From positions 1 through 19,036 of the forward strand of contig VBJR01000351.1 of assembly GCA_005880175.1 (NCBI GenBank): DNA of 19,036 bases, given 5' to 3'. A model generated the notes under the pieces. The model saw only the letters and a list, made by a program, of their open reading frames with translations. It searched no databases and was not told the origin of the DNA. The position numbers and the translations under genes were made by a program. Position 1 is the first letter of the stretch; every line of letters begins with the position of its first letter. Shown here piece after piece: positions 2,489-19,036 of the stretch. The DNA comes from Chloroflexota bacterium (GTDB lineage: Bacteria; Chloroflexota; Dormibacteria; Dormibacterales; Dormibacteraceae).

Positions 2489-2549
2489 CACCCCGGTCCG
2501 GAGGTGCGCCTCCCGGGGCGGGGGTAGCGCACACCGGTCCAGAAGTGCG
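2482..2549 (+). repeat. Diverged tandem duplication between ku and ligase
   Basis: The end of ku plus flank (GGGGTAGC then CACCCCGGTCCGGAGGTGCG, 2482-2508) recurs as GGGGTAGC then CACACCGGTCCAGAAGTGCG (about 2522-2549). The 20-base cores (2489-2508 and 2530-2549) match at 17 of 20 positions. The first copy includes the Ku stop codon. This looks like an old tandem duplication; a regulatory role is not evident. Confidence 0.5.
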
Positions 2550-2571
2550 GTTCGCCTACCCTGTGGGAGCG

Positions 2572-3606
2572 ATGGCCGACCAGCTCGCGATCGAGCTGGA
2601 TGGGACACCGACCGCGATCCGGCCGATGCAGGCCGTCTCCGGCGAGGCCCCGTTCAGCTCACCCGAGTACTTCTTCGAGGTCAAGTGGGACGGTCTCCGC
2701 TGCCTGCTCTTCGTGGGCTGGGACCGCCAGGTCCGGCTCCACGACCGCAGCCTGAACGACGTCACCGCGCTCCTTCCCGAGCTCCGCGACATCGGCCGGC
2801 AGGTCGCGCCCGGGTCCGTCCTCGACGGCGAGCTGGTCGCCACCGACGAGCAGGGCCGGCCCGACTGCATCGCGCTCCGCCGCCGGCTCCTGGCGGGCGC
2901 CGAGCTGGTGGACAGGGTGCCCCTCGCCTACCTCGCGTTCGACGCCCTCCACCTGGCGGGCCGGCCCCAGGCCCGCCAGCCGCTGCACCGGCGCCGGGCC
3001 CGGCTCCAGCGGTCCGTCACCCCCGGCGGCCACCTGTTCGTGCCGTACCACATCGAGGGCGAGGGCGTCGAGCTGTACGAGGCCTGCCTGGAGCGCGGCC
3101 TCGAGGGCGTGATGGCCAAGCACCGCGACTCCACGTACGTGCCCGGCCAGCGCAGCCCGTTCTGGCTGAAGATCAAGGCCGTCAAGAGCGACGACTTCCT
3201 CGTCATCGGCTCCACGGCTGGCCGGCCGGGCGAGCCGTTCGGCGCGCTCCTGGTCGGCTACCACGAGCACGGGCGGCTCTTACCCTGCGGCGCGGTGGGG
3301 GGCGGCTACGACGAGGACGTCGCCGAGGCCATCGCCGCCCGGCTGGCCGAGCTGGCCACCGAGGAGTGCCCCCTCCGTCCCGCGCCCGTGGTCACCGCGC
3401 CCGTGCGCTGGTGCCGGCCCGAGCTGGTCATCAGCATCCGCTACTCGGAGTGGGCGCCCGACGGCACCCTCCGCTTCCCGATCTTCAACGGCCTCCGCCC
3501 GGAGGTCCACCCGGCCGAGTGCGTCCGGCACCGGCCGCGCGTCGTGCTCGCCGGCCGCACCCAGCCGGGCACGCCCGCGTACGACCTGGCCCGCTTCCCC
3601 TTCTGA
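2572..3606 (+). CDS. ATP-dependent DNA ligase (LigD/LigC-type ligase domain only)
   Basis: This 344-residue ligase carries the nucleotidyltransferase motifs in order: motif I EVKWDGLR with the adenylated lysine at K38, motif III LDGELVA (about 84-90), motif IV LEGVMAKH (about 178-185) and motif V FWLKIKAVKSDDFLVIG (about 199-215). An OB-fold domain follows (about 220-344), including RWCRPELVISIRYSEW. It seals breaks using ATP and, next to ku, is very probably the NHEJ ligase. The polymerase and phosphoesterase domains found in full LigD are absent, so this is the compact form. The start chosen is the ATG at 2572, nine bases after TACCCT and preceded by GGGAG; upstream reading in this frame overlaps ku and is low-complexity, so it is not coding. 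Confidence 0.92.
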   Translation: MADQLAIELDGTPTAIRPMQAVSGEAPFSSPEYFFEVKWDGLRCLLFVGWDRQVRLHDRSLNDVTALLPELRDIGRQVAPGSVLDGELVATDEQGRPDCIALRRRLLAGAELVDRVPLAYLAFDALHLAGRPQARQPLHRRRARLQRSVTPGGHLFVPYHIEGEGVELYEACLERGLEGVMAKHRDSTYVPGQRSPFWLKIKAVKSDDFLVIGSTAGRPGEPFGALLVGYHEHGRLLPCGAVGGGYDEDVAEAIAARLAELATEECPLRPAPVVTAPVRWCRPELVISIRYSEWAPDGTLRFPIFNGLRPEVHPAECVRHRPRVVLAGRTQPGTPAYDLARFPF

Positions 3607-12599: not shown

Positions 12600-13604
12600 A
12601 TGACGACCCTCCTGGACCGGTACGCGGACCGCGTGGCGCGACACCTGCGGGAGACGGCGCCGCCGGTGCACTCGATGAGCGGCCTGATGGCCGCCTATCA
12701 CATGGGGTGGGTCGATCGGGACGGCCGGCCCGACACCGCCCGCCCCGGCAAGCTCGTCCGGCCCAGCCTCTGCCTGTGGGCCTGCGAGGCGACGGGCGGG
12801 GACACGGCCCTGGCCCTCCCCGTCGCGTCCGCGCTGGAGTGGGTGCACAACTTCACCCTGGTCCACGACGACATCCAGGACGGCGACCGCGAGCGGCGCC
12901 GCCGGGAGACGGTCTGGTCCGTGTGGGGCTCCTCGCAGGGCATCAACGCCGGCGACGCCCTCCACGCGTTCGCGTTCGAGCTGCTGCTGGCCCCGGGCCG
13001 GCTCACCTCGCGCCGCCTCCGGGCGGGCCGCGCGCTGGCCCGGGCGGTCCGGGAGGTGGTCGAGGGCCAGTGCCTCGACCTGGCCCAGGAGGGCCGGCTG
13101 GAGACCGGGCCCCGCCGCTACCTGCGGATGGCCCGGGCCAAGACCGGCGCCCTGCTCGGAGCGAGCATGGAGACGGGCGCGCTGCTCGGCGGGGCCCCGA
13201 GCGGCGTCGCCGCGGCCCTGCGCCGCGCCGGCCAGCTGCTGGGCCAGGCCTTCCAGGTCCGCGACGACTGGCTCGGCATCTGGGGCGACCCCGGCCAGAC
13301 CGGCAAGTCGTGTGACGGCGACCTGGGCCGGCGCAAGACCACGTTCCCCGTCCTCGCCGCCTACGCCGTGATGCGGCAGCCCGAGCGGCGCCGCTTCCGG
13401 GCGCTGTTCGCGAGCCGCGGCGAGGCGGAGGTCCCCGAGCTGCGGGCGATGCTCGAACGGCGCGGCGCCGACTGCCTCGCCGCCGGCGCCGCCCACCGGC
13501 TCGCCGGCGACGCGGTCAGGCTGGTCCGCGGCGCAGGACTGCCCCGGACGTCCACCAGGTACTTCGAGGAGTTCGCACGCCATGTCGCGGACAGGCAGCG
13601 GTAG
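12600..13604 (+). CDS. Polyprenyl (farnesyl/geranylgeranyl) diphosphate synthase
   Basis: This 334-residue trans-prenyltransferase condenses IPP with allylic diphosphates. The first aspartate-rich motif is DDIQD (D90, D91, D94) in [14 protein letters not shown], and the second is in [12 protein letters not shown] (D222, D223). The following [18 protein letters not shown] is the conserved stretch seen in this branch. GKLVRP (50-55) binds IPP. A phenylalanine (F85) lies five residues before the first motif, a position that limits chain length, so a C15 or C20 product is inferred; the downstream squalene genes need farnesyl diphosphate. It is the first gene of the operon and overlaps the isomerase gene by 23 bases. 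Confidence 0.92.
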
Positions 13605-15105
13605 AGCGGCGACGGCGAACGGCCGGGGGCCGGCCGCGACGATGGGCCGCAAGGCCGACCACATCCGCATCAACCTGCAGGAGGACGTTCGCGCCAAGGG
13701 CGTGGACAGCGGCCTCGCGGAGTACCGCTTCCTGCACCAGGCCCTGCCCGAGCTGGACCTGGGCACCGTTGACACGTCCGTCCGCGTCCTGGGCCGGCGG
13801 CTGGCCGCGCCGCTGCTGATCTCCTCGATGACGGGCGGCACGGCGCAGGCGCGGACGATCAACCGGACCCTGGCCGAGGTGGCGCAGGCGCGCGGCCTGG
13901 CGATGGGCCTGGGCTCGGGCCGCGCGCTGCTGGAGCACCCCGACGTCCAGGACACGTTCGACGTGCGGCCGGTGGCGCCGGACGCGCTCCTGCTGGCCAA
14001 CCTGGGCGCCGTCCAGCTCAACAAGGGCGTGACCGTGGACGACTGCAGGCGCCTGGTGCGCCGGCTGGGCGCGGACGCGCTCGTCCTCCACCTCAACCCG
14101 CTCCAGGAGGCGCTCCAGCCCGAAGGCGACGTGGCGTTCGGCGGCCTGCTGGCGCGGATCGAGGCGCTGTGCGGCCGGCTGGAGGTGCCGGTCGTCGTCA
14201 AGGAGGTCGGCTGGGGCATCGCGCCGGACACCGTGCGCCGGCTCGTGGACGCGGGCGTCGCGGCCGTGGACGTGGCCGGCGCCGGCGGCACCTCGTGGAG
14301 CGAGGTCGAGCGGCACCGGATCGACGACCCGGTCCGCTCCCGCGTCGCGGCCGCGTTCGCCGGCTGGGGCATCTCGACGGCCGAGGCGCTGCGCCTGGCC
14401 CGCGCGGCCGCGCCGGACACGCCCGTGTTCGCCAGCGGCGGCATCCGCACCGGCCTGGACGTGGCGAAGGCGATGGCGCTGGGCGCCGACCTGGTCGGCC
14501 TGGCCCGCCCCTTCCTGCTCGCGGCCGACGAGGGTCCAGGGGCGGCCGACGACCTCGCGCTCGAGCTGGTCGAGGTGCTGCGGATCGCGATGTTCTGCGT
14601 CGGCGCCGGCGCGATCGCGGAGCTGCGGGGCACCCCGCGCCTGCTCCGCGAGGGCGAGGAGCCGGCGGCCCAGGGGCTGGCGCAGCTCACGTACCGGACG
14701 GCGGGGCCCGGCGAGTTCATCGACATCACCGACGACGTGGCCCGCGTGCTGCGCCTCGCCGGCGCCCGCCGCGGCCTGGTCCACGTGTACTCGAGGCACA
14801 CGACCGCCGCCGTCCGCGTCAACGAGAACGAGCCGCTGCTGCTCGCCGACTTCCGCCGCTTCCTGACCGGCGTCGCCCCTGCCGGCGGCGCGTACGAGCA
14901 CGACGACATGACCCGGCGCGTGGACGTGCCCGCGGACGAGCCGATCAACGGCCACGCCCACTGCCAGCACCTGCTGCTGGGCGCGAGCGAGACGCTCCCG
15001 ATCGTGGACGGCCGGCTCGCGCTGGGCCGGTGGCAGCGCCTGTTCCTGATCGAGCTGTGCTCGGCGCGCGAGCGGCAGGTGGTGGTCCAGGTCATCGCCA
15101 CATGA
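13582..15105 (+). CDS. fni: Fusion of type 2 isopentenyl-diphosphate isomerase with a YjbQ/UPF0047 domain
   Basis: This 507-residue protein has two parts. Residues about 22-355 are the FMN-dependent type 2 IPP isomerase, interconverting IPP and DMAPP: SSMTGG (81-86), [12 protein letters not shown] (109-120), LHLNPLQE (Q175, metal-binding E176), VVVKEVGWG (204-212), GAGGTSW (233-239) and [15 protein letters not shown] (283-297). Residues about 366-507 match the YjbQ/UPF0047 family: [14 protein letters not shown] (404-417), [12 protein letters not shown] (456-467) and [20 protein letters not shown] (473-492), with histidines H406, H458, H460 and H463 in the usual cluster. YjbQ proteins show weak thiamin-phosphate synthase activity in vitro; their true role is unknown. 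Normal isomerases end near residue 350. The junction (about 350-368) is an ordinary linker in one open frame. The start at 13582 overlaps the previous gene; an ATG at 13642 is an alternative. Confidence 0.9.
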
Positions 15106-15947
15106 GCGACTACGCCGAGCTGACCGCCGCGGACTCGTACTGCCGGCTGCTCGCCGCGCGGCACTACGAGAACTTCGCCGTGGCCTCGCGGCTGCTGCCC
15201 GCCGCCCTGCGCCTGGACCTGGCCCGCGTGTACGCGTACTGCCGGACCACCGACGACCTGGGCGACGAGAGCGGAGGCGACGCCACGGCCCGGCTGGGCC
15301 GCTGGCGGGACGAGGTGCTGGACCTGTTCGGGGGCCACCCGCCGGTGCACCCGGTGCTGGTCGCCCTGCGCGAGACCGTGCGCCGGCACGACCTGCCGCC
15401 GGGGCCGTTCCTCGACCTGGTCGGCGCCAACCTGCGGGACCAGCGGGTGCACGCGTACGAGACGTGGTCGGAGCTGGCGGCGTACTGCCAGCTGTCCGCC
15501 ACGCCGGTGGGCCGGATCGTGCTCCGCCTGTTCGGCCTCCGCCACCCGGACGCCGAGCGGCTGTCGGACGACGTCTGCACCGGCCTCCAGCTCGCCAACT
15601 TCGCGCAGGACGTGAGCCGGGACGCGGCGCGCGGCCGCCGGTACCTGCTGGGGTCGGAGGTCGCCCGCCTCGGGGTGCCCGGCGCGGTGCGCGCGCACTG
15701 CGACCGCGCCCGGGGCCTGCTGGCCTCCGGCGCCGAGCTGGAACGGCTGGCGTCGGGACGCCTGCGCCTCCAGCTCTCCCTGTACCGGCTGGGCGGCCTG
15801 GCGATCGTGGACGCGATCGCGCGAGCCGGGTGGGACACGGAGCGGACGCGGCCGCGCGTCTCGGCGGCGGCCAGGGCGGGCCTCGCCGTGCGCGCGGCGA
15901 TGGGCCTGAGAGGAGGGACGCATGTCGCGAACCTCGGACCGGCTTGA
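15102..15947 (+). CDS. hpnC: Squalene-route synthase HpnC (hydroxysqualene synthase)
   Basis: This 281-residue member of the squalene/phytoene synthase family has [13 protein letters not shown] (21-33), characteristic of HpnC, the first aspartate motif DDLGD (D51, D52, D55) and the second FAQDVSRD (D170, D174). In the HpnCDE route HpnD makes presqualene diphosphate from two farnesyl diphosphates, HpnC converts it to hydroxysqualene, and HpnE reduces that to squalene. Both metal-binding motifs are intact. It starts within the stop of the isomerase fusion (ATGA, four-base overlap), and its own 3' end carries the ribosome-binding site and first codons of hpnD (26-base overlap). Confidence 0.93.
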
Positions 15948-16803
15948 GCGGCCGGCGCGAGTCGAATGGCGAGCGGCCGAGCGGTACTGCCAGCGGATGG
16001 CGCGCCACGAGGCCGGCAACTTCTACTGGGGCTTCGTCTCGCTGCCCCACGACCAGCGGGTCGCCATCTACGCGCTGTACGACTTCGCCCGCCAGGTGGA
16101 CGACGAGGCGGACGCCGCGGAGCGGCCCCATCTCGCCGCCAGCCTGGAGCGGCACCGGCAGCGTGCCCGCGCCAGCGCGGCGGGCGCGCCCGACGGGGCC
16201 GACCCGGTCGCGCTGGTCCTGGCGAGCGCGGTGCGGCGGTACGCGATCCCCGAGTCGGAGCTCCAGGCCCTGATCGACGGCGTCCAGACCGACCTGACCC
16301 GGACCCGGTACGCGACGTGGGCCGACCTGGAGGCGTACTGCCGGCTCGTGGCCTCGACGATCGGCCGGATGTGCGTGCGCGTCTTCGGCTTCGACGACCC
16401 GGCGGCGCTGGACCGCGCCGACGAGCTGGGCGTGGCCCTCCAGCTCACGAACATCCTGCGCGACGTCAAGGAGGACGGCGAGCTGGGCCGGGTCTACCTG
16501 CCCGCCGAGGACCGGGAGCGGTTCGGCGTGGGCGAGGCGGACCTGCTGGCCGGCCGGCCCGGCCCGGGCTGGGAGGCGCTCGTGGACTTCGAGGCGCGCC
16601 GGGCCCGCGGGCTGTTCGCGACCGGCCTGCGGGTGCTCCGGCTGATCCCCCACCGCCCGGCCGTCTGCGTCGGCACGATGGCCGGCATCTACGAGCGGAT
16701 CCTGGGCATGGTCGAGCGCGAGCCACGGCTGCCGCTCCGGCGCCGGGCATCGCTCTCGCCGGCCGCGAAGGCGGCGGTGCTGGTGAGGTCGTGGATCGGG
16801 TAG
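15922..16803 (+). CDS. hpnD: Presqualene diphosphate synthase HpnD
   Basis: This 293-residue synthase has GNFYWGFVSLP (32-42), the first aspartate motif DDEAD (D60, D61, D64) in DFARQVDDEAD, and the second, LQLTNILRDVKED (D181, D185), followed by GRVYLP. It joins two farnesyl diphosphates into presqualene diphosphate. The phytoene-synthase-like residues and the position next to hpnC and hpnE separate it from HpnC. A strong GAGGAGGG lies just upstream of the ATG at 15922, inside hpnC. The C terminus is basic, and its last 13 bases overlap the start of hpnE. Confidence 0.93.
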   Translation: MSRTSDRLERPARVEWRAAERYCQRMARHEAGNFYWGFVSLPHDQRVAIYALYDFARQVDDEADAAERPHLAASLERHRQRARASAAGAPDGADPVALVLASAVRRYAIPESELQALIDGVQTDLTRTRYATWADLEAYCRLVASTIGRMCVRVFGFDDPAALDRADELGVALQLTNILRDVKEDGELGRVYLPAEDRERFGVGEADLLAGRPGPGWEALVDFEARRARGLFATGLRVLRLIPHRPAVCVGTMAGIYERILGMVEREPRLPLRRRASLSPAAKAAVLVRSWIG

Positions 16804-17993
16804 CGGTGGTGGGCGCCGGCCTGGCCGGCCTGTCGGCCGCGGTCGCCCTGAAGGAGGCCGGCCGCCACGTCGAGCTGTTCGAGCGCTCGCGGCTGCTGGG
16901 CGGCCCGGACCTGGCCACCCGGCTCGGCCTGGGCCGCTGGCTGCGCCTCCAGGAACGGTTCGACGTCCGCGTGTTCGCCCCGGGCCGGCCGCCGAGCCGG
17001 CTGCGGGCGGCAGACCTGCCCGCGCCGTGGCACCTGGCGGTCGGGTTCCTGCGCTACGCGGAGCTGGGCTGGGGCGACCGCGTCCGGGTGGCGCGGACGC
17101 TGCTGGCGCTGGCCGCGCGGGCCGGGGACGACCGGTCGCTGGCCACCTGGCTGCTGGCGCACGGCCAGACCGACGCCGCGCTGGCCGCGTTCTGGGAGCC
17201 GTTCTTCGTGCCCGCGCTGAACGCGCCGCTGGACCGGATCACGGTGGGCGAGGCGGCGTTCGTGGTCGCCACGGCGTTCCTGAGCGACGCCGGCGCCGCC
17301 CGTTTCGGGTTCCTCACCGTGCCGCTGGCCCGCCTCGCGGAGGCCGCGGCGGACCGGCTGGACGCCGTCCACCTGCGGACGGCGGTGACCGGCCTGGAGC
17401 GGTCGGCGGCCGGCACGGTGACGGCGGTGTGCACCGCGGACGGCCAGCGGCTCGGCTTCGACGGGTTCGTGCTGGCCGTGCCGCCGGACCGGCTGGACCG
17501 CCTGGCGCCGGGTCTCGGCCTGCCTCCGCTGGACGGGTTCGCCAGCCGGCCGATCGTGGACGTGCACCTGTGGCACGACCGGGGCACGCTCGGCTTCGAC
17601 TTCGCGGCGCTGCTGCGCTCGCCGGTGCAGTGGGTGTTCGAGAAGGCGTCGGGCTACCTCTGCTGCAGCCTGAGCGACGCCGGCGAGGTGGTGGGCTGGC
17701 CCGAGGAGCGGCTGGTCGCGCTGGGCTGGTCGGCGGTGTCCGGGCGGCTGCCGCAGCTGGCCGGCGCCCGCATGGTCCGGGGCGCCGCCACGCGCAGCCC
17801 GGACGCGACATACGCGGCCCCCGCCGGTGGGCGCCGGCCGGGCCCGGCGACGTCGGCCCCCAACGTGGCGCTGGCCGGCGCCTGGACGGACACGGGCTGG
17901 CCGGACACGATGGAGTCGGCGGTGCGCAGCGGCAACGCCGCGGCGGAGCTGCTGCTGGTGGCGTCGGCGACGGAGGCGAGCCGCGTTGCCTGA
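16791..17993 (+). CDS. hpnE: Hydroxysqualene dehydroxylase HpnE (FAD-dependent), shortened N-terminal FAD domain
   Basis: This 400-residue flavoprotein begins VDRVAVVGAGLAGLSAAVAL, the dinucleotide-binding GxGxxG of the amine-oxidase superfamily (8-13), and has LPAPWHLAVGFLRY, EPFFVPALNAP (about 137-147), FVLAVPPDRL and the C-terminal ALAGAWTDTGWPDTMESAV with its FAD-contacting residues. It would convert hydroxysqualene to squalene. Unlike relatives, LLGG (about 33-36) runs straight into PDLATRLGLGRW. The segment that normally follows GG (GR-x-S-F ... DNGQH-x-GCY, roughly 28-30 residues contacting FAD) is absent while the frame stays open. The GTG at 16791 is the only sensible start, behind GGTGAGG and inside hpnD; the stop overlaps the cyclase start by eight bases. 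Activity may be impaired. Confidence 0.85.
   Translation: MDRVAVVGAGLAGLSAAVALKEAGRHVELFERSRLLGGPDLATRLGLGRWLRLQERFDVRVFAPGRPPSRLRAADLPAPWHLAVGFLRYAELGWGDRVRVARTLLALAARAGDDRSLATWLLAHGQTDAALAAFWEPFFVPALNAPLDRITVGEAAFVVATAFLSDAGAARFGFLTVPLARLAEAAADRLDAVHLRTAVTGLERSAAGTVTAVCTADGQRLGFDGFVLAVPPDRLDRLAPGLGLPPLDGFASRPIVDVHLWHDRGTLGFDFAALLRSPVQWVFEKASGYLCCSLSDAGEVVGWPEERLVALGWSAVSGRLPQLAGARMVRGAATRSPDATYAAPAGGRRPGPATSAPNVALAGAWTDTGWPDTMESAVRSGNAAAELLLVASATEASRVA
17972..17988 (+). promoter_or_regulatory. Ribosome-binding site fixing a TTG start for the cyclase
   Basis: GGAGG (17972-17976), inside the 3' end of hpnE, is nine bases before TTG (17986-17988). No ATG or GTG occurs in the cyclase frame near here before the conserved text begins, so TTG is the most likely start codon. 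Confidence 0.6.
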
Positions 17994-19036
17994 CGCGCTG
18001 ACCGCGGCGATCGAGTGGCTCTGGCAGCGCCAGGACGGCGAGGGCTGGTGGGTCGGCGAGCTCGAGACGAACCCGACGATGACCGCCGAGCACGTGCTCC
18101 TGCTGCGGTTCCTGGGCGTGCCGCTGGACCCGATCCGCACGGGCGCGATCCGGCACCTGCTCGGCTGCCAGCGGGCCGACGGCTCCTGGGCGCTCTACCA
18201 CGACGGACCCGCCGACCTGAGCACCACGATCGAGTCGTACGTCGCCCTGAAGGTGCTGGGCGTCGATCCCGCGAGCCCGGAGCTGGCCCGGGCCCTGCGC
18301 GTCGTCCTCGACCTGGGCGGCGTGGCCCGGGCCCGCGTCTTCACGAAGATCTGGATGGCCCTGTTCGGCGCCTACCCGTGGGCGGGCGTGCCCAGCATGC
18401 CGCCCGAGCTCGTCCACTTCCCGCTCTGGGCCCCGTTCAACCTGTACGACTTCGCGTGCTGGGCCCGGGGCACGATCGCGCCCCTGCTGATCGTGATCTC
18501 GCGGCGGCCGGTCCGGCCGCTCGGGGTCGACGTGCCCGAGCTGGTCGCGCCGGGCACCGAACGGCTGCTGACGCGGGTGCCGGGGTCGGGCCTGTTCTGG
18601 TGGCTGGACGTGATCCAGAAGCTGTACGAGCGTCTGCCTCGCCAGCCCGGCCGGGCCCGGGCGCGCCGGCGGCTGGTGGACTGGATCGTCGAGCGGCAGG
18701 AGGCGGACGGCAGCTGGGGCGGCATCCAGCCGCCCTGGGTGTACTCGCTGATCGCGCTGCACCTGGAGGGCATGGACCTCGACCACCCGGTCGTGCGCCG
18801 GGGCATCCAGGGCCTGGAGGGCTTCGCGCTGGAGGACGAGGGCGGCTGGCGGTTCCAGGCCTGCATGTCGCCGGTCTGGGACACGGCCTGGGCCGTGCTG
18901 GCGCTGCGCCGGGCCGGCGTCGGGCGGGAGGACGCGCGGCTGCAGCGCGCGGTCGGCTGGCTGCTGGACGAGCAGATCCCGCCGGACGCGCCCGGCGACT
19001 GGCGGGTCAAGTGCCCGGACGTGCCCAACGGCGGCT
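17986..19036 (+). CDS. shc: Squalene-hopene cyclase, N-terminal part (3' end outside window)
   Basis: The open frame runs from the TTG at 17986 to the window edge (350 codons). It shows the family order: AAIEWLWQRQDGEGWWVGEL with TNPTMTAEHVLLLRFLG (membrane-facing start domain), QW-type repeats CQRADGSWALYHDGPADLST, RQEADGSWGG with IQPPWVYSLIALHLEGMDLD, and SPVWDTAWAVLALRRAG. It ends with VKCPDVPNGG, the stretch that normally leads into WAFEFENDNYPDVDDTA, so the catalytic DxDD would fall just outside. It cyclises squalene to hopene and diplopterol at the membrane. As the last visible gene of the operon it makes hopanoids the product. Confidence 0.95.
   Translation, partial: MPDALTAAIEWLWQRQDGEGWWVGELETNPTMTAEHVLLLRFLGVPLDPIRTGAIRHLLGCQRADGSWALYHDGPADLSTTIESYVALKVLGVDPASPELARALRVVLDLGGVARARVFTKIWMALFGAYPWAGVPSMPPELVHFPLWAPFNLYDFACWARGTIAPLLIVISRRPVRPLGVDVPELVAPGTERLLTRVPGSGLFWWLDVIQKLYERLPRQPGRARARRRLVDWIVERQEADGSWGGIQPPWVYSLIALHLEGMDLDHPVVRRGIQGLEGFALEDEGGWRFQACMSPVWDTAWAVLALRRAGVGREDARLQRAVGWLLDEQIPPDAPGDWRVKCPDVPNGG

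Follow-up and report, generated by a model that had tools for sequence, protein, structure and literature searches.

A type 2 isopentenyl diphosphate isomerase fused to a UPF0047/YjbQ domain in a hopanoid operon, and a related fusion to a polyprenyl diphosphate synthase

What does a UPF0047/YjbQ domain do when it shares a polypeptide with an enzyme of isoprenoid synthesis? The question is raised by a gene at positions 13582..15105 of contig VBJR01000351.1 (assembly GCA_005880175.1) from a Dormibacteraceae bacterium, of which the whole analysed stretch of 19,036 nucleotides is referred to here as the window. The gene encodes a type 2 isopentenyl diphosphate (IPP) isomerase (IDI-2) that continues into a UPF0047 domain, a family that to our knowledge has no settled function. 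We find that the fusion is genuine and widespread, and that UPF0047 domains of the same clade are also joined to a second enzyme of prenyl diphosphate metabolism, a polyprenyl diphosphate synthase.

The frame lies on the forward strand, as do the other genes of its operon, and it begins with ATG, encodes 507 amino acids (aa) and contains no internal stop. Its start at 13582 is backed by the N-terminal methionine, which is invariant in a 12-row alignment and conserved in at least 90% of a 56-row alignment. In hmmscan searches, the IDI-2 model TIGR02151 matches residues 23-355 (13648..14646) with 382.8 bits against a cut-off of 281.3, covering model positions 2-336 of 338. The YjbQ model TIGR00149 matches residues 369-505 (14686..15096; 101.3 bits, cut-off 67.75), and the UPF0047 model PF01894 matches residues 381-504 (111.6 bits, cut-off 27). 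The two domains are separated by a linker of residues ∼356-368 (14647..14685), which is variable in the alignment and carries a long insertion in at least one relative (P0112). The fusion described in the initial annotation is real, with both parts above curated cut-offs in a single frame.

A missing stop or frameshift near 14640-14700 had been named as a possible artificial origin of this frame. At the three codon positions the IDI-2 half has G+C contents of 0.79/0.52/0.98; for the UPF0047 half the values are 0.78/0.47/0.98, and the third-position value remains 0.95-1.0 across the junction. Because this pattern is continuous, no sign of a shifted frame is seen at 14640-14700. Full-length homologues occur in many separate assemblies, and both halves are under purifying selection, with ratios of nonsynonymous to synonymous differences (pN/pS) of 0.16-0.40 for the IDI-2 half and 0.26-0.44 for the UPF0047 half in eight fused-gene pairs, some of which have genes in common. 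Together, these observations rule out an assembly artefact, and we give next to no weight to a missing stop, a frameshift or a chimeric assembly.

The arrangement is also not confined to the window. In a search of 5.8 billion proteins, from which 8000 matches were scored and 120 listed, all 120 listed relatives (65-94% identity) hold both PF01070 and PF01894, so that other proteins with an IDI-2 followed by UPF0047 in one chain do exist. Our own domain models likewise found both parts in 120/120 of these relatives, and a simple check gave the order IDI-2 to UPF0047 in 119/120. Source names, available for some of these relatives, point to metagenome-assembled genomes of Dormibacteraeota, Eremiobacteraeota, Binatus, Eisenbacteria, Acidoferrales and other bacteria. 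Pairwise distances within the two halves are correlated across 56 proteins (r = 0.76), a value reached in 0/2000 permutations. A fused-domain profile run against 149 genomes of the phylum that includes G003 (locus L003, titled Eremiobacterota) matched 64 of them, and four (G003, G004, G006 and G205) gave fusion-level scores; G205 holds the complete operon from the synthase through to the cyclase. Several features of the records themselves are worth recording. The automatic name 'isopentenyl-diphosphate Delta-isomerase' masks the YjbQ half in relatives of the fusion. In one draft genome (L152, 4630-6149) the IDI-2 half is divided between two overlapping frames. Four metagenome-assembled genomes that carry the fusion (L001, L005, L008 and L045) are titled 'Bacillota', a title that is probably wrong for L001 because its genome, G001, falls in the same phylum as the Dormiibacterota-titled or -assigned loci L042 (G033) and L043 (G034).

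Both halves of the protein are predicted to fold. An AlphaFold2 monomer model built on 56 sequences has a mean predicted local distance difference test (pLDDT) score of 83.2 and a predicted template modelling (pTM) score of 0.69. In the N-terminal half, R23, K24, H170, N172, Q175, E176 and K207 are invariant in 56 rows, residues that we take to have the catalytic and cofactor-binding roles of their counterparts in IDI-2 structures. Foldseek matches the barrel of this half to the IDI-2 enzymes of S. shibatae and T. thermophilus, the best match being 3vkj_A from S. shibatae (E 9.3e-31, TMt 0.85), with a TMt of 0.92 for 1vcg_B. Sequence and model together argue strongly that this half would be an active IDI-2 dependent on flavin mononucleotide.

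The UPF0047 half modelled alone, from 10 sequences, is weaker than the full model (mean pLDDT 69.9). All 17 Foldseek matches with E ≤0.001 are nevertheless YjbQ-type chains, among them 1xbf (the best, E 1.8e-10), 1vmj and 1ve0, and all 17 belong to entries also found by the UPF0047 family profile, which matches nine distinct sequences among solved structures. The domain is of a long type, with ∼10 extra residues (...HDD..RR...DEP.NGHAHC) that are absent from most short-type rows and form a loop marked by R446, E453, H458 and C461. The histidine cluster that the initial annotation had thought intact is so: across 56 aligned relatives, three of its members (H406, H458, H460) never vary and the fourth, H463, is kept in at least 90%.

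A second fusion is found in genomes G001 and G020, in each of which an additional UPF0047 frame reads on into a polyprenyl diphosphate synthase. With the 464-aa protein of G020 as query, 120/120 relatives listed hold PF01894 together with PF00348, and in our own models UPF0047 is N-terminal to the synthase in all 120. UPF0047 is present in 107 genomes of a sample of 151 from the phylum of G001, and long-frame matches in that phylum supplied six further synthase-fusion genes (L141-L146) beside those at L099 (1702-3093, reverse strand) and L083 (1011-2441, reverse strand). Both kinds of fusion occur in G001 and in G130, where the IDI-2 copy is truncated by the contig end. In the three proteins whose synthase half was scored, the top models are those for heptaprenyl synthase or encapsulin cargo, in every case under the cut-off. 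A MenG/UbiE methyltransferase gene adjoins the synthase fusion in 5/8 loci, identified by model in L099, L145 and L146 and by eye in L141 and L143. The names shown by NCBI for this protein are 'secondary thiamine-phosphate synthase enzyme YjbQ', which masks the synthase; automatic names can thus conceal either half, YjbQ in one fusion and the synthase in the other. Among the matches listed in open-licence literature on YjbQ/UPF0047, neither fusion is described. The second partner strengthens the link between this branch of YjbQ and prenyl diphosphates drawn in the initial annotation.

The relationship between the two fusions was assessed with a tree of 88 UPF0047 domains over 143 columns, in which the 23 short-type rows were hand-picked from more and from which L087 (the same place as L012) and the duplicates L113, L125, L129 and L130 were left out. 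A single clade within the long type (support 99/94) unites the 27 IDI-2-fused domains with the 17 synthase-fused ones, separate from 21 stand-alone long-type rows and from the short-type rows. The synthase-fused rows are themselves one clade (100/99) nested among the IDI-2-fused rows, and L012 and L151, which have a long common branch, group with them (98/76). The simplest reading of this tree is that one UPF0047 lineage became attached to IDI-2 in a single event and was transferred afterwards to the polyprenyl synthase, or the reverse. A tree of the IDI-2 domains, which was of a quick kind without bootstrap and excludes L087, L151, L152, all loci numbered above L080 and matches below 400 bits, has 18 fused rows intermingled with 44 unfused ones in one clade of 62 (SH-aLRT 99). 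As drawn, this tree contains at least nine changes between fused and unfused, of which its starred branches force only one. Against a single fused IDI-2 clade, the approximately unbiased (AU) test is borderline (p 0.0494 with 18 rows, 0.0557 with 16 rows), and loss of UPF0047 in unfused relatives is therefore likely only. The IDI-2 tree suggests that the domain has been lost repeatedly.

We also asked which proteins the domain is joined to in general, using 112 UPF0047 frames from loci L001-L180 (6 of them duplicates) and the codon pattern of the 100 residues adjoining each domain. Seventeen frames are joined to IDI-2 and eight to a polyprenyl synthase; the IDI-2 cases came mostly from targeted search and the synthase cases did not. 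In none of the remaining 87 frames does the codon pattern give a convincing coding extension of at least 60 aa. The difference between third- and second-position G+C is 0.27-0.54 in the domains, 0.24 in a 70-aa extension in L095, and at most 0.14 in the extensions elsewhere. Candidate further fusions in L081, L096, L121, L147 and L150 were rejected on a weak or non-coding codon pattern before the domain, and that in L149 on a region ahead of the domain that looks non-coding by eye. L148 (G149), with a UPF0047 frame of 468 aa, is a further candidate. A homologue search with the UPF0047 half as query gave mainly stand-alone relatives and fragments.

Several polar positions of the domain are common to its two fused contexts. 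At least 88% of the rows in both fused groups keep D381, T383, H406, T408, N414, E415, E417, D423, H440, R446, E453, N456, H458, H460, C461, Q485, E491, R496 and R498. Nine of these (D381, H406, T408, D423, H440, N456, H460, Q485 and E491) are mostly kept in the stand-alone groups as well. Of the stand-alone long-type rows, 76% have T in place of R446, and of the synthase-fused rows, 11% have Q in place of H458.

To place the fusion in its genomic setting, species genomes of GTDB were scanned and the best 80 of 553 confirmed relatives were taken as 80 loci, a selection that favours close relatives; a hopanoid gene was counted where HpnC, HpnD or cyclase exceeded 150 bits (HpnE was not counted). 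The IDI-2 is fused in 14 of these loci and unfused in 66. Relatives of the fusion adjoin hpn genes: the fused gene is directly followed by HpnC in 11/14 loci, and in L013 directly by the cyclase. No hopanoid gene was found in fused loci L009 and L012, the contig of the latter stopping at the gene. The record L087 (1454-3582), from the same place as L012, has the IDI-2-UPF0047 gene together with a polyprenyl synthase gene; its contig is short and lacks hopanoid genes, and a neighbour there resembles a daptide-biosynthesis HExxH protease (111.3 bits, cut-off 300). IDI-2 and UPF0047 as neighbouring separate genes were seen in none of the 66 unfused loci by tblastn, and a frameshifted or separate UPF0047 downstream of IDI-2 in L022 and L035 was rejected, as none appeared by tblastn or in frames read by eye; the longer matches at these two loci in the genome scan are alignments that had been extended.

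We propose, with a probability of roughly 45%, that the window protein is an isomerase with an optional UPF0047 module that may bind or turn over short prenyl (di)phosphates. The IDI-2 half would convert IPP to dimethylallyl diphosphate (DMAPP) for the upstream synthase and for the downstream HpnC/D/E and cyclase. The UPF0047 half, with the conserved polar residues of its family and an extra loop rich in His, Cys, Glu and Arg, could bind or convert IPP and allylic diphosphates, ligands common to both fusion partners; we hold with moderate confidence that prenyl phosphates would be its ligand. As an optional accessory, it might trim, salvage or sense the prenyl pool beside the enzyme that produces or consumes it. 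The only activity reported for YjbQ is a low thiamin phosphate synthase activity. That reaction likewise splits the C-O-diphosphate bond of an activated alcohol, so that little change would be needed to act on allylic diphosphates. It is possible, although we advance the idea only tentatively, that this UPF0047/YjbQ lineage natively acts on allylic or isopentenyl (di)phosphate and became attached to enzymes that make DMAPP and prenyl chains. If so, a prenyl-phosphate enzyme would serve hopanoids through IDI-2 and probably menaquinone through the polyprenyl synthase, the same diphosphate chemistry would account for thiamin phosphate synthesis as a side reaction, and YjbQ function would become testable on defined substrates. 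Because a single YjbQ lineage occurs in two abundant fusions, each with a prenyl-diphosphate enzyme, the candidate substrates are few.

A number of observations weigh against this proposal. Hopanoid genes accompany the unfused IDI-2 in 35/66 loci, mostly in the same order, compared with 12 fused loci that have them, and by tblastn the UPF0047 half is absent from all 66 unfused loci and present in the 14 fused ones. A PF01894 search of the genomes of 40 of the 80 loci found UPF0047 in 25, comprising 14/14 fused and 11/26 unfused genomes, and detected none in 13/21 searched unfused genomes with hopanoid genes; as these genomes are incomplete drafts, each absence is soft. It seems, then, that hopanoid operons can function in the absence of UPF0047 and that the domain is dispensable in them, and a role as a required hopanoid step is rejected. 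Of the tie between YjbQ and isoprenoid supply for hopanoids made in the initial annotation, the operon context and the prenyl-diphosphate link stand, but a requirement for the domain does not. Its optional presence is more in keeping with an accessory function in salvage, pool control or assembly than with a step of the pathway. In addition, both fusions descend from one UPF0047 lineage and so do not represent separate recruitments of stand-alone domains. The synthase-fused domain is altered at three otherwise conserved positions (P473 to L, R486 to S and L489 to A) in 17/17 rows, and no MenG/UbiE gene was seen beside three of the eight synthase fusions (L083, L142 and L144). Stand-alone long-type UPF0047 genes lie mostly by non-isoprenoid genes, for example acyl-CoA carboxylase-like genes read by eye in L091 and L160-L163. 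A metal-hydrolase-like gene is near those in L086 and L157 (by eye), and two isoprenoid-like neighbours were seen, a convergent IDI-2 in L155 and a synthase 3 kb away in L159. The isoprenoid link is therefore confined to the fused branch and does not extend to all long-type YjbQ proteins.

The optional nature of the domain is also what would be expected if UPF0047 only set quaternary structure, gathering the pathway in a closed shell or lattice, with the same module serving the polyprenyl synthase. UPF0047 proteins are trimeric in solved relatives. An octameric IDI-2 has been solved (title of 3vkj), and such an assembly is conceivable because four-fold and three-fold symmetry would be combined in one chain. 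The linker is variable, and the module follows IDI-2 in one fusion but precedes the synthase in the other, a placement that would suit a portable assembly tag. However, the pocket-type polar residues H406, T408, E415, E417, H440, N456, H460 and E491 are conserved in both fusions, a constraint not expected of a mere scaffold, and we consider this explanation rather unlikely. Alternatively, the domain may be a ligand sensor that binds a prenyl diphosphate, diphosphate or thiamin precursor and tunes the fused enzyme without turnover. Both partners handle prenyl diphosphates and the domain is optional; weak catalysis by the YjbQ family, mentioned in portions of PMC11551756 and PMC3091646, speaks against a purely sensory role, which we regard as improbable.

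That the domain is simply the thiamin phosphate synthase of its genome, and the fusion a chance of gene order, is an explanation we find highly doubtful. It has in its favour the TIGR00149 score above the cut-off and the ability of overexpressed YjbQ to replace ThiE, as stated in portions of PMC11551756 and PMC3091646, which cite Morett et al. 2008. When 32 of the 40 genomes searched for UPF0047, including all 14 fused ones, were searched for ThiE, two of the fused ones, G007 and G010, gave no match. However, ThiE scores over the cut-off in the other 12/14 fused genomes, making its replacement unlikely as the main role of UPF0047; G007 and G010 hold additional UPF0047 genes; and the second fusion to an isoprenoid enzyme would require a second coincidence. 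An isomerase with an optional, prenyl phosphate-directed UPF0047 module is the reading we favour.

The window gene sits in a hopanoid operon, as the initial annotation stated, with the corrections that the HpnC/D/E scores are slightly under their cut-offs and that the cyclase comes after HpnE. The order is polyprenyl synthase, fusion, HpnC, HpnD, HpnE and squalene-hopene cyclase. The first gene encodes a trans-polyprenyl diphosphate synthase (12600..13604; PF00348, 178.3 bits). Its best NCBIfam model is NF041169 (family 2 encapsulin cargo polyprenyl transferase), with 301.9 bits against a cut-off of 450, and an encapsulin cargo identity was rejected on this score. The fusion is followed by genes for an HpnC-like synthase (15102..15947; TIGR03464, 240.1 bits, cut-off 250.45), an HpnD-like synthase (15922..16803; TIGR03465, 262.5 bits, cut-off 278.6) and an HpnE-like dehydroxylase (16791..17993, with a GTG start placed from the frame; TIGR03467, 281.4 bits on 16800-17993, cut-off 283.05). 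Each is the best family for its gene yet scores 1-6% below the NCBIfam cut-off, and we therefore label these proteins Hpn-like. The squalene-hopene cyclase gene (17986..19036, with a presumed TTG start) is truncated by the window end; its first part matches TIGR01507 with 345.8 bits over model positions 19-370 of 640 (whole-protein cut-off 431.1). Neighbouring genes overlap at several points: the synthase stop at 13604 lies past the fusion start at 13582, the fusion stop at 15105 past the HpnC start at 15102, and the HpnC stop at 15947 past the HpnD start at 15922. Elsewhere in the window, the translation read by eye shows a Ku-like protein (1643-2488) followed by an ATP-dependent DNA ligase-like frame (∼2500-3600), probably an end-joining pair.

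Compared with known systems, the N-terminal half has the whole domain, fold and conserved residues of type 2 IPP isomerases (T. thermophilus 1vcf/3dh7, S. shibatae 2zru/3vkj), but it differs from them in its extra C-terminal UPF0047 domain and in its place inside a polyprenyl synthase-hpnCDE-cyclase operon. That operon resembles the HpnC/HpnD/HpnE squalene route with cyclase in gene order and families, but it also incorporates IDI-2 and a polyprenyl synthase, and its Hpn models score just under cut-off. The UPF0047 family, found in 10/14 control genomes and spanning bacteria and archaea, includes TM0723 (1vmj) and ST2072 (1ve0), with which the window domain has in common the fold and the H-T-T, N-E, H, N..H, G.WQ and E positions; unlike these, it is fused and of the long subtype. 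A further parallel is the UPF0047-polyprenyl synthase fusion (P0122, L083, L141-L146), which has a UPF0047 domain of the same clade and likewise a prenyl-diphosphate partner, but in which the domain order is reversed, the synthase is HepT-like and a menG-type gene often lies alongside.

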